Source: Planctomycetota bacterium (GTDB taxonomy: Bacteria; Planctomycetota; Planctomycetia; Gemmatales; Gemmataceae). Taken from it: DNA of 35,570 nucleotides. This document shows, piece by piece, positions 3,562-29,304 of this stretch. Below the pieces are notes generated by a model that had not been told where the DNA came from, searched no databases, and saw nothing but the letters and a program-made list of their open reading frames with translations. Location: contig VGZJ01000024.1 of the NCBI GenBank assembly GCA_016872595.1, positions 1 through 35,570 on the forward strand, read 5' to 3'. Numbering within the stretch: the first letter of the stretch is position 1; every line of letters begins with the position of its first letter. The position numbers were made by a program, and so were the translations under genes.

Positions 3562-3652
3562 TCGTTCGTGCCTGCGGCCACAAGTTTCCGCTCGCGCGCG
3601 GGGCCGCTACAACACCTCCTACCCCGTGCCGCGCACCACCCCGGGTCCCCTC

Positions 3653-5662
3653 ATGTCCGCTCTCCAGTACCTGCCGCACACGCGCATCAAGACGCTCAAG
3701 CTCGCCAGCGCGGTCGCCGCGGCGAAGCACGTCGCGTCCGAGATCGACAAGCTCATTCGCGCGCGCAACGCCGCCGGCAAGAACACCGTGCTGGGGCTGG
3801 CCACCGGCAGCACGCCGGTCGGCCTGTACCGCGAACTGATCCGCCTGCACAAAGAGGAAGGGCTGGACTTCTCGCGCGTCGTCACGTTCAACCTCGACGA
3901 ATACTATCCGATGCCGCGGGAGAGTCAGCACTCGTACTTCCGGTGGATGCACGAGACGCTGTTCAACCACATCAACGTGAAGTGGGACAACATCCACATC
4001 CCCGACGGCACGCTCAAACCGAACGAGGTGGACGCGGCGTGCGCGGCCTACGAGGAGAAGATTCAGGCCGCGGGCGGGATCGACATTCAGATTCTGGGCA
4101 TCGGACGCACCGGGCACATCGCGTTCAACGAACCCGGCAGCCCGCAGAACAGCCGCACGCGGCTCGTCACCCTCGACAGCATCACCCGGCGCGACGCGGC
4201 CGACGGGTTTTTCGGCGAAAAGAACGTCCCGCACCACGCCATCACGATGGGCGTCGCAACGATCCTCGAGGCGCGCCGCATCTACATGATGGCCTTCGGC
4301 GAGCACAAGGCCGGCATCGTCTACAAGGCCGTCGAGCAACCGCCGACCGAGGCCGTGTCCGCGAGCTTCCTCCAAGAGCGCAAGGAAGCGGTGGTGGTGC
4401 TCGACGAGGCCGCGGCGTCGGAGCTGACGGCGATCAAGCTCCCGTGGGAGGTCGGGCCGTGCGCGTGGACCCCGGAACTGGTGCGCAAGGCCGTGGTCGC
4501 CCTCTCGCTCACGGTGAAGAAGGGGTTGCAGAAGCTCAACGACGACGACTTCCGCGACCACCACTTGTACGAACTGTTGCGCGAGAAAGGCCCGGCCGAA
4601 CAGATCGGCGAGGCCGTGTTCCACGACCGCATGGCGACGATCAAGCCGTACCCGGCGGGGCGCGTCGATCAACCTACCCCTCCGGCCCCCCTCCCTGAAG
4701 GGAGGGGTGAGAAAGAGACCGCGCGCGCCGAGAACACTTCTAACACCTCGTTGCCTTCGTCCCCCTTCCCTTCAGGGAGGGGGGCCGGGGGGGTAGGTTC
4801 GGCTCCCAAAACGATTCTGGTCTTCAGCCCGCACCCGGACGACGACGTGATCTCGATGGGCGGAACCATCATCCGCCTCGTGGAACAGGGGCACAAGGTT
4901 TACATCGCGTACATGACGAGCGGGAACGTCGCGGTGTTCGACCACGACGCGCGCCGGTTCGTCGACTTTATCGACGAGTTCCTTCAGGCGTTCGGCAACC
5001 CGGCCGAGCAGTCGAGCGCGGGCACCATCAAGGAGCGCGTGTACGCGTTCCTCGACGCCAAGAAGCCAACAGAGCCGGACACGCCCGAGGTGCGCAAGGT
5101 GAAGTCGGTGATCCGCGCGACCGAGGCCCGCGCCGGCGCGCTGGTGTGCGGCATCCCGCCGGAGCAGTGCGAGTTCATGGACCTGCGGTTCTACCACACC
5201 GGCACCAAGACCAAGAAGCCGATCCACGAGAAGGACATCGAGGACATCGTCGATTTGCTGAAGCGGCTGAACCCGGCGCAGGTGTACGTGGCCGGCGAAC
5301 TGAGCGACCCGCACGGCACGCACCGCATCTGCGCGGAGGCGATCTTCACCGCGGTGCGGCAGGTGCGCCCCGCCGGGTTCGACCCGGACGTGTGGCTGTA
5401 CAAAGGTGCGTGGGAAGAGTGGGAGCCGCACGAGATCGAAATGGCCGTGCCGCTGTCGCCGGAAGTGCTGGAAAAGAAGAAGCAGGCCATCTTCCGGCAC
5501 CAGAGCCAGAAGGACCGGGCCATGTTCCCCGGGGGCACCGACCGGCGCGAGTTCTGGCAGCGCGCCGAGGCCCGCAACCTCGCGACCGCGCGCACCTACG
5601 ACGCGCTGGGCCTGCCCGAGTACTTCGCACTCGAAGCGTTCGTGAAGTGGAAAGACGGCTGA
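3653..5662 (+). CDS. nagB: Glucosamine-6-phosphate deaminase-like / PIG-L deacetylase fusion
   Basis: 669 aa from ATG 3653; an in-frame GTG at 3626 would add 9 residues. The N-terminal ~330 residues are a NagB-type isomerase/deaminase domain (ATGSTPVGLYRELI, FNLDEYYP, GIGRTGHIAFNEPGS). The C-terminal ~285 residues are a LmbE/PIG-L-type deacetylase (VFSPHPDDDVISMGG with the HPDD zinc motif, and SDPHGTHR near the second metal ligand). The same two-domain architecture exists in Bacteroidetes proteins annotated as glucosamine-6-phosphate deaminase. In E. coli NagB the catalytic loop reads NDGH, with Asp141; here it is RTGH, so that Asp is Thr while the His and the Glu of FNEPGS remain. True GlcN6P deaminase activity is therefore uncertain. 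The domains are joined by a linker made from a palindromic DNA repeat (4671-4799). A role in amino-sugar catabolism fits the kinases at 22847-25008. Confidence 0.85.
   Translation: MSALQYLPHTRIKTLKLASAVAAAKHVASEIDKLIRARNAAGKNTVLGLATGSTPVGLYRELIRLHKEEGLDFSRVVTFNLDEYYPMPRESQHSYFRWMHETLFNHINVKWDNIHIPDGTLKPNEVDAACAAYEEKIQAAGGIDIQILGIGRTGHIAFNEPGSPQNSRTRLVTLDSITRRDAADGFFGEKNVPHHAITMGVATILEARRIYMMAFGEHKAGIVYKAVEQPPTEAVSASFLQERKEAVVVLDEAAASELTAIKLPWEVGPCAWTPELVRKAVVALSLTVKKGLQKLNDDDFRDHHLYELLREKGPAEQIGEAVFHDRMATIKPYPAGRVDQPTPPAPLPEGRGEKETARAENTSNTSLPSSPFPSGRGAGGVGSAPKTILVFSPHPDDDVISMGGTIIRLVEQGHKVYIAYMTSGNVAVFDHDARRFVDFIDEFLQAFGNPAEQSSAGTIKERVYAFLDAKKPTEPDTPEVRKVKSVIRATEARAGALVCGIPPEQCEFMDLRFYHTGTKTKKPIHEKDIEDIVDLLKRLNPAQVYVAGELSDPHGTHRICAEAIFTAVRQVRPAGFDPDVWLYKGAWEEWEPHEIEMAVPLSPEVLEKKKQAIFRHQSQKDRAMFPGGTDRREFWQRAEARNLATARTYDALGLPEYFALEAFVKWKDG
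4671..4799. repeat. Palindromic element of the CCTACCCC/CCCTTCCC family inside a coding sequence
   Basis: The arms 4671-4703 and 4767-4799 are reverse complements over 33 nt with one mismatch. The total length is 129 nt, an exact multiple of three, and the reading frame of the surrounding enzyme fusion is kept through it. It encodes about residues 340-383 (beginning PTPPAPLPEGRG, ending SGRGAGGVG), a Pro/Gly-rich linker. Relatives lie at 14070-14121 and 20150-20252. Confidence 0.9.
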
Positions 5663-14069: not shown

Positions 14070-14121
14070 AACCTAACCCCCCGCCCCCTTCCCTTCAGGG
14101 AAGGGGGCGGGGGGTTAGGTT
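14070..14121. repeat. Perfect palindrome of the CCTAACCCC/CCCTTCCC family behind guaA
   Basis: 25-nt arms 14070-14094 and 14097-14121 are exact reverse complements around a 2-nt centre. It starts 4 bp after the guaA stop on the minus strand and could terminate or punctuate that transcript. It shares CCTAACCCC and CCCCTTCCCT with 20150-20252 and 4671-4799. Confidence 0.9.
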
Positions 14122-15670: not shown

Positions 15671-15683
15671 GAGCAAAGCCTTT

Positions 15684-15930
15684 TATCCGCAGATTCCGCA
15701 GATGGACACAGATTGAAGACAGAAGGCAGAACGGCCACAAGAAAGCACAAGACACACAAAGAAGACCCAGCCCGAATACAGATCAGAAGACAACAGAATC
15801 AGCAACGCAGCGGTATGCCTTCAACCATGCTCCTGTCTTCTCTGCTGTCTTCTTTGTGGCTTTTGTGCCTTTTTGTGGCCGTTCTGCCTTTTTGTCTTCA
15901 ATCTGTGTCCATCTGCGGAATCGGCGGATC
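15684..15930. repeat. Long imperfect palindrome between proC and guaA
   Basis: The left arm 15684-15766 and right arm 15847-15930 are reverse complements over about 85 nt with some mismatches and small indels. The outer parts (ccgcagatggacacagattg, then aagac) are identical. It fills almost the whole gap and its right arm reaches into the proC stop codon (15929-15931). No gene is seen in the gap. The guaA promoter, if separate from proC, must lie within or beside the repeat. Confidence 0.85.
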
Positions 15931-16789
15931 AACTCTTCTTCCCCAACTCCTGTGCCCGCTTGGTGGCGGCTTCGACAGCGTCGATTGCGGCGGCGCGGAA
16001 GGCGGCGCGCTCTAGCGCGTGCAGGCCGACGATGGTCGTTCCGCCGGGGCTGGCGACCGCGTCCTTCAGCGCGCCGGGGTGCTGGCCGGTTTGCAGCACC
16101 ATTTGCGCCGCGCCCAGAACCGTTTGTGCCGCGAGTGCCTGTGCGGTCGCGCGCGGCAGGCCGCACTTAACCCCGCCGTCGGCCAGCGCCTCGATAAACA
16201 GGTACACGAACGCCGGGCCGCTCCCGCTTAGGCCGGTGACGGCGTCGAGCAGGTGCTCCGGCAGCGCGTGCGCCACGCCCACCGCGCCGAACAGCTTGCC
16301 CACGAGGTCCGCGTCGGCCGCGGCGCGCGCGGTGTAGCCACTGGCGCTGGCCCCGACGAGGCACGGCGTGTTGGGCATGACGCGCGCGAGGCGCTCGGTG
16401 CCGAGGCCGGCGGCGAGCGTATCGAGCGTGACCCCGGCCGCGATGGAGATGACGAAGTGCCGCGGCGTCAACACCGGGCGCAGTTCCGCGAGCACCGCGG
16501 GCACGATCTGCGGCTTCACCGCGAGCACCAGCACGTCGCAGGCCCTCGCGACTTCGGCGTTGGTGGAGAGGGTGGGAACGCCGGTCGCGGCCTCGAACTT
16601 GGCGCGCGCGTCCGGGTACGGGTCGGCGGCGCGACTGCGGGCGGGGTCGATGAGGCCGGTTCGCGCCCACGCCGCCGCGAGCGCGGTCGCCATTTGCCCC
16701 GCACCGAGGAAGCCGACGGTCAGGGGAAACGGCGGATCGAGGGCCACGGGCCACACCCCGCGAACGGCGGAGGGGAAAAGACTCATCAT
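15929..16789 (-). CDS. proC: Pyrroline-5-carboxylate reductase
   Basis: 286 aa from ATG 16789; ATG 16786 is equally possible. It catalyses the last step of proline synthesis, P5C to proline with NAD(P)H. The Rossmann motif VGFLGAGQMATALA lies near residues 23-37. Further family marks are VLAVKPQ, SIAAGVTLDTL, RVMPNTPCLVG, and the C-terminal helical domain with LDAVTGLSGSGPAFVY and SPGGTTIVGL. It is about 15 residues longer than usual at the N-terminus, so an internal start may be used. It is divergent from the MFS transporter gene, and 114 bp separate them. The stop codon touches the repeat at 15684-15930. Confidence 0.95.
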   Translation of the reverse strand: MMSLFPSAVRGVWPVALDPPFPLTVGFLGAGQMATALAAAWARTGLIDPARSRAADPYPDARAKFEAATGVPTLSTNAEVARACDVLVLAVKPQIVPAVLAELRPVLTPRHFVISIAAGVTLDTLAAGLGTERLARVMPNTPCLVGASASGYTARAAADADLVGKLFGAVGVAHALPEHLLDAVTGLSGSGPAFVYLFIEALADGGVKCGLPRATAQALAAQTVLGAAQMVLQTGQHPGALKDAVASPGGTTIVGLHALERAAFRAAAIDAVEAATKRAQELGKKS

Positions 16790-18820: not shown

Positions 18821-18835
18821 ATGGAGTGCAAACAG

Positions 18836-19053
18836 GCAGAAGAGTTTTGACAGGATGAACAGGATCAAAACAGGATGAAGAGAGACATCAACTTGCTCTG
18901 TTGAAACCCTATCATTTGACGGGGTTTCCGCAGGGGGCGATTCGGCGAATCTCCGGGGATTCCGCCGCCTCTAACCAGAGGGTTTCAACAGAGCAACATC
19001 AACTCTCAATTATCTCTGTTCATCGTGTTCATCCTGTCAAAACTCTTCTGCCT
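18836..19053. repeat. Outer palindrome, GGCAGAAGAG/CAGGATGAA family, split by a MITE
   Basis: The left arm starts at 18836 (ggcagaagagttttgaca, then ggatgaac) and the right arm ends at 19053; 26 nt match perfectly at the outer ends. Removing bases 18894-19004, which are the inner element plus one 9-bp duplicate, restores a compact palindrome with additional pairing (gatgaagagaga against tctctgttcatc). A related copy lies at 6736-6845. It lies between convergent genes. Confidence 0.85.
18894..18995. mobile_element. 102-bp MITE-like element with 17-bp TIRs and 9-bp target duplication
   Basis: The ends 18894-18910 (tgctctgttgaaaccct) and 18979-18995 are exact reverse complements. The element is flanked directly by identical 9-mers, acatcaact at 18885-18893 and 18996-19004. 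No open reading frame of note is inside, so it is non-autonomous. Internal hairpins such as gattc-ggc-gaatc are present. It is inserted in the loop of another palindromic repeat. A 9-bp duplication is seen in several IS families (for example IS4/IS10-like, IS1, ISAs1); the parent element is not in the window. Confidence 0.9.
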
Positions 19054-19074
19054 TTTTGCCTTCGCCCCCACAAC

Positions 19075-20149: not shown

Positions 20150-20252
20150 ACCTAACCCCCCCAACCCCCTTCCCTGAGAGGGAAGGGGGAGCCAGAGTGT
20201 TGTTTTCTCTTCCCCCCTTCCCTCTCAGGGAAGGGGGTTGGGGGGGTTAGGT
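20150..20252. repeat. Palindromic element of the CCTAACCCC/CCCTTCCC family in a divergent promoter region
   Basis: 34-nt arms 20150-20183 and 20219-20252 are exact reverse complements, and pairing continues for a few bases inward. It sits upstream of both the ThuA-like gene (minus) and the S9 peptidase gene (plus), a position where a terminator would make no sense. It is related to 4671-4799 and 14070-14121. Confidence 0.9.
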
Positions 20253-29123: not shown

Positions 29124-29304
29124 GCGGATACGTTGAGCGCGCTTGGGGTGGCGCTCGCAGCGCCTCGCTGACCCCAAGCTCTTGAGTGCAACGTCTTCGG
29201 CGTAAAGACTAACGCGCCTGCTGTACCGCGAAGCGGTTACACCCGATAGCTTGGGGTCAGCGAGGCGCTGCGAGCGCCACCCCAAGCGCGCTCAACGTAT
29301 CCGC
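29124..29304. repeat. 57-bp perfect inverted repeat around a structured 67-nt centre
   Basis: Bases 29124-29180 (start gcggatacgttgagcgcgct) are the exact reverse complement of 29248-29304, with no mismatch. The 67-nt centre has two small hairpins: gtctt/aagac near 29194-29210 and accgc-gaa-gcggt near 29225-29237. A diverged extra copy of part of the left arm (gcgctcggggtggcgctcgc) lies just before it at about 29088-29107. The element occupies the region between the divergent DUF1501 and protease genes; the rest of this 318-bp gap shows no gene. Confidence 0.92.

Follow-up and report, generated by a model that had tools for sequence, protein, structure and literature searches.

How a long palindromic DNA element comes to lie inside the coding sequence of a two-domain enzyme, and whether the protein makes use of it or tolerates it, is the question raised by the window (the whole 35,570-nt stretch of DNA that was analysed). 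So far, palindromes within coding sequence have been described chiefly in Rickettsia, Wolbachia and some genomes rich in REPs. The source genome (G000) belongs to the Gemmata lineage and is a fragmented metagenome assembly (MAG) of 6.8 Mb in 590 contigs, of which the window is contig C24. The gene concerned (positions 3653–5662, + strand) encodes 669 aa from a presumed ATG start, with the open frame extending from a GTG at 3626. It joins a NagB-type glucosamine-6-phosphate isomerase domain (3713–4390, + strand; PF01182, residues 21–246), which has relatives of solved structure, to a PIG-L-type deacetylase domain (4817–5353, + strand; PF02585, residues 389–567). The element (4671–4799, + strand) falls between them, as the sequence-only reading of this DNA had proposed.

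The coordinates and the outermost 33-nt arms with one mismatch given in that reading were recovered. Over their full 45 nt the arms are 89% complementary, and each carries an inner hairpin, CCCTCCCTGAAGGGAGGGG in the left arm (4671–4715, + strand) and CCCTTCCCTTCAGGGAGGGG in the right (4755–4799, + strand). The inverted-repeat score is 31, whereas 200 shuffles reach 10 at most, and the linker RNA of the fusion gene has a predicted fold of −105.9 kcal/mol (z = −9.25). The element's 129 nt correspond to 43 codons (approximately residues 340–382, QPTPPAPLPEGRGEKETARAENTSNTSLPSSPFPSGRGAGGVG). Just one of its six frames is open, that of the host gene. The earlier remark that the length is a multiple of three and that no stop is introduced is thus accurate, although shuffled sequences indicate that an open frame is expected from composition. 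In an AlphaFold2 model (alignment of 34 orthologues) pLDDT is below 50 at residues 341–382, coinciding with the element-encoded segment, and the domains on either side are confident and well folded. The 43 residues apparently form a floppy or disordered Pro/Gly-rich linker.

Alignment of orthologues bears on the age of the insert. We compared 54 distinct orthologues, each with both domains, and found a short linker of 12–27 nt (4–9 residues) in 35 of them; distant orthologues mostly have 12–15 nt. The sister genome (92–94% identical) has the same fusion with a linker of 27 nt (GRVAKAGEA) and without the element. The remaining long linkers include 10 that are palindromic and 9 that are not, so the orthologues do not all share one ordinary non-palindromic linker. 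By this comparison the fusion predates the insert, in agreement with the order of events suggested earlier: the element entered an existing fusion gene. Outside the element the linker here is 21 nt, compared with 27 nt in relatives, so either the element did not insert cleanly or later changes altered the linker. Linker lengths are nearly all multiples of three. The exception, in a Fimbriiglobus MAG (L087, around 1736), has a 17-nt linker with the NagB and PIG-L parts in different frames, which could come from an assembly slip or from a gene that is split.

The linker has received palindromes repeatedly. At least 10 orthologues, this genome included, carry a long palindrome there, and these belong to several unrelated families. 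A-type elements occur in L010, L040 and L050 as well as here; L042, L044 and L048 have purine-rich types, and L049, L053 and L067 have palindromes with different hairpins. Each matches other places of its own genome, with many matches at about 81–98% identity for the L053 and L049 inserts. On a gene tree of 54 rows, built with the linker left out of the alignment, presence of a palindrome requires eight changes, seven of them forced by well-supported branches, and ten changes if the families are told apart. A single ancestral insertion followed by losses was rejected, as the families differ and the lineages between are empty. The site does not record a single event; the ten orthologues and the tree point to repeated arrivals of unrelated palindromes. 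All four A-type inserts start at one nucleotide, 13 nt into the linker from a conserved Gly codon, and starting points differ between families. Three of the four belong to one clade, and these inner-clade copies may partly have a common origin.

The element is one member of a dispersed family, here called family A. Searching the source genome with a 22-nt core pattern gives 114 matches (59 forward, 55 reverse), whereas the reversed control gives none; many of these sites match both strands because the pattern is near-palindromic. BLAST with the 129-nt element also returned many copies at 70–80% identity over most of the length. From 60 fetched stretches we read 67 copies, so the genome holds at least 67, and all family A counts are lower bounds because the assembly is fragmented. 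Typical copies have AACCTA...TAGGTT ends enclosing a pair of inverted CCCTTCCCTGAAGGGAAGGG hairpins and span about 95–140 nt; single-hairpin and compound forms also occur. Family A is therefore a many-copy palindrome with terminal inverted repeats in the size class of ~100–150 bp. Together with the orthologue comparison, this supports identification of 4671–4799 as a mobile-type palindromic repeat that arrived after the fusion arose. Two other copies lie in the window, a single-hairpin copy at 14070–14121 and a two-hairpin copy at 20150–20252 that is flanked by divergent genes. Both are intergenic, as the sequence-only reading said of family members, but this does not extend to the whole genome, where 40 of the 67 copies are genic and read through in frame.

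Coding calls for these copies were based on codon usage and homology. Codon usage was scored over 240 nt per side, and a call required an open frame with both flanks scoring best in that frame. Hosts recognised by Pfam include MutL, RecO, Lnt, dihydrolipoyl acyltransferase (E2), PutA and RecD2, and further Fpg, NuoL, TilS, Mfd, UvrA, UPF0261, ABC and P-type ATPases and others. Peptides flanking each insert were joined without the element and searched in three relatives (82 comparisons, 35 junctions). A near-empty orthologue (less than 60 nt, counting 18 nt of trimmed flank) was found at 27 of the 35 testable junctions. A change of frame was possible in the 38 comparisons in which the two flanks aligned as distinct segments, and every one of these 38 spacings is divisible by three; the other 44 comparisons gave single segments, which are uninformative on frame. 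Inserts avoid recognised domains. Only 7 of 37 lie inside Pfam matches (12 of 37 counting split or truncated matches), compared with 22 expected, and the simulated P for 12 is about 0.0004. Stop-codon depletion as an adaptation to coding was rejected, because the number of open frames in genic copies (2.69) is close to that in dinucleotide shuffles (2.66).

Homologous sites were read in the sister (G006) and in two other relatives (G003 and G015). At several of them, including the Fpg, aldehyde dehydrogenase, ABC, sulfatase-sialidase, ArnT, PutA, AMP-binding/acyltransferase, E2 and two glycosyltransferase sites, relatives hold palindromes unlike the copy in the source genome, all in frame. Some insertions are clearly common to the source genome and the sister, as in a spermidine synthase-like gene. 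At two sister sites (L230 and L200), where the source genome has the full element, there are GGGGGGGTAGGT-like remnants, for example GGGGGGGTAGGTT; these are apparently scars of in-frame partial deletion.

We consider it very probable that the element is a selfish palindromic repeat that survives in the NagB/PIG-L fusion because the protein tolerates it. Family A repeats would spread selfishly; one copy entered the linker of the already fused gene in frame, where it would be translated as a Pro/Gly-rich disordered segment that leaves both domains intact and is presumably neutral. Selection would remove insertions that break frame or fold, and for this reason survivors would gather in intergenic DNA and in those linkers and loops that tolerate them. 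Unrelated palindromes would thus come to land at the same tolerant sites in different lineages.

A more tentative extension, which we regard as possible but doubtful, is that several unrelated families reuse the same protein landing sites and have been shaped for one preferred frame as disordered linkers. In at least 31 of the 40 genic copies the element is read in the frame AA|CCT, which yields Q/E/K-P-N/T-P-P, a second frame also being open. The peptide in the dominant frame starts with P-N/T-P-P and mostly ends in GVG or GLG, and the other open frame is clearly used by only 2 of the 40. Simple tolerance does not obviously account for this dominance. If the extension is correct, linker length in many core enzymes would be a mobile trait, particular to each lineage.

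The dominant frame could also reflect targeting, in which a DNA or RNA feature at such junctions draws insertion and selection plays a minor part. The identical start nucleotide of the four A-type inserts and the different palindromes at the same sites of several genes are in keeping with this, as are two copies with inverted flanks of their own. In these (L165 3307–3443, contig C105 of the source genome, and L172 1337–1478), copy-specific flanks add 16 and 9 nt to the inverted repeat, and the copies perhaps landed in a pre-existing palindrome. Insertion into pre-existing palindromes as a general rule was rejected, as just these two copies are striking: overall, flank complementarity is not clearly above that of re-paired flanks. 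Nor did we find a clear target-site duplication (mean 1.38, compared with 1.01, sd 0.20, for re-paired flanks). The families, moreover, start at different places within the linker, and the three A-type inserts of one clade might owe their shared start partly to shared origin. We therefore regard targeting as unlikely. Genes for Y1 transposases of the REP-associated type are present in the source genome and most relatives and were considered as the mover. At the loci read this found no support: none of the six, among them one of the five in the source genome, has family A hairpins beside the transposase, and no Y1 transposase gene was found in G002, which is rich in matches.

Less probable still is the domestication put forward in the sequence-only reading, by which a longer flexible linker would have been selected for better coupling of the two catalytic domains. 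Long linkers have appeared many times in this gene (the 10 palindromic and 9 non-palindromic cases among 54), with the frame kept throughout, which speaks for this reading. Most orthologues, the sister included, manage with 4–9 residues, however, and the linker sequences of different lineages are unrelated. The same elements also occur in dozens of unrelated proteins, which points to tolerance; tolerance accounts for the data, and the description of the element as domesticated is not borne out.

It is very improbable that the palindrome is bypassed in translation, or serves as an RNA signal between the domains, without becoming part of the protein. The hairpin is very stable, and bypassed palindromes have been reported for yeast mitochondrial genes (cited in PMC6649704). 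Under bypass, though, there would be no need for spacings in multiples of three or for a host frame that stays open in 40 copies, and relatives hold in-frame partial remnants. That the segment is low-complexity coding sequence or an assembly artefact is scarcely credible: the codons are GC-rich Pro/Gly codons and the metagenome assembly is fragmented with many repeats, but both flanks belong to one orthologous gene in frame, the arrangement recurs in independent genomes, many further sites in the genome match the element, and its degree of palindromy greatly exceeds that of shuffles.

Returning to the reading as a tolerated selfish repeat, the closest known counterparts are the Rickettsia palindromic elements (RPEs; Ogata et al. 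2000, 2002, reviewed in PMC2229807 and PMC10969869). These are ~100–150 bp long, and a genome carries several families of them; some copies are intergenic, and many lie inside conserved genes and keep the frame (PMC2229807, PMC10969869). A conserved encoded peptide has been reported for RPEs (PMC2229807, PMC10969869), and in the guanylate kinase case the insert is translated in a working protein (PMC2229807). Family A shares the size, the many copies, the in-frame positions in conserved genes and the orthologues without insert, and its single dominant frame recalls the conserved RPE peptide. The comparison with RPEs had been made from this locus and proves apt genome-wide, given the 40 of 67 copies in frame and the empty orthologues. 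RPE hosts are Rickettsiales, whereas the host here is a planctomycete of the Gemmata lineage, and family A is GC-rich with two CCCTTCCCTGAAGGGAAGGG hairpins, which sets it apart from RPEs as these are described.

Intragenic REPs of the GTAG and CGTC families are 20–40 bp units, one end of which bears a GTAG or CGTC tag. They occur in several phyla, often in repair genes including uvrA, and the palindromes are often in inverted pairs; intragenic GTAG repeats are reported to be most numerous in Opitutus terrae (Verrucomicrobia), and REPs have been reported in Planctomycetes (PMC3733652). Family A resembles them in its inverted pairs and in its copies within uvrA and other repair genes. It differs in being a symmetric unit of 95–140 nt with AACCTA/TAGGTT ends (CCTAACC or CCTACC), in having GTAG inside the arm and only in some copies, and in its absence from the flanks of the six Y1-transposase loci read here. 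MITEs such as Correia, ERIC and QMITE, for which in-frame gene fusions are described (PMC2229807, PMC10969869), are likewise short and many-copy with terminal inverted repeats and occasional gene fusions; unlike these, family A copies have no clear target-site duplication. A literature search on palindromic repeats of Gemmata and Gemmataceae returned nothing relevant by title and abstract. New here, set against the cited works, are the phylum for extensive coding palindromes, the sequence families (RPEs being compared by description) and the reuse of sites by unrelated families.

Planctomycete coding palindromes thus occur on a scale comparable to known cases and in core genes of repair, respiration and metabolism. 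They account for the puzzling 'linkers', rich in Pro and Gly, of predicted planctomycete proteins and advise caution before these are called conserved domains. Whether such inserts are tolerated or useful is directly testable, because relatives with, without and with unrelated inserts exist.

Other inverted repeats were identified in the window. The longest, at 29124–29304, has 84-nt arms that are 89% complementary and 13 nt apart, and is not a member of family A. AT-richer inverted repeats at 15682–15932 and 18828–19059 (of ATGAACAGGATCAAAACAG and CCGCAGATTCCGCAGATGGACACAGATTGAAG types) look like additional repeat families.
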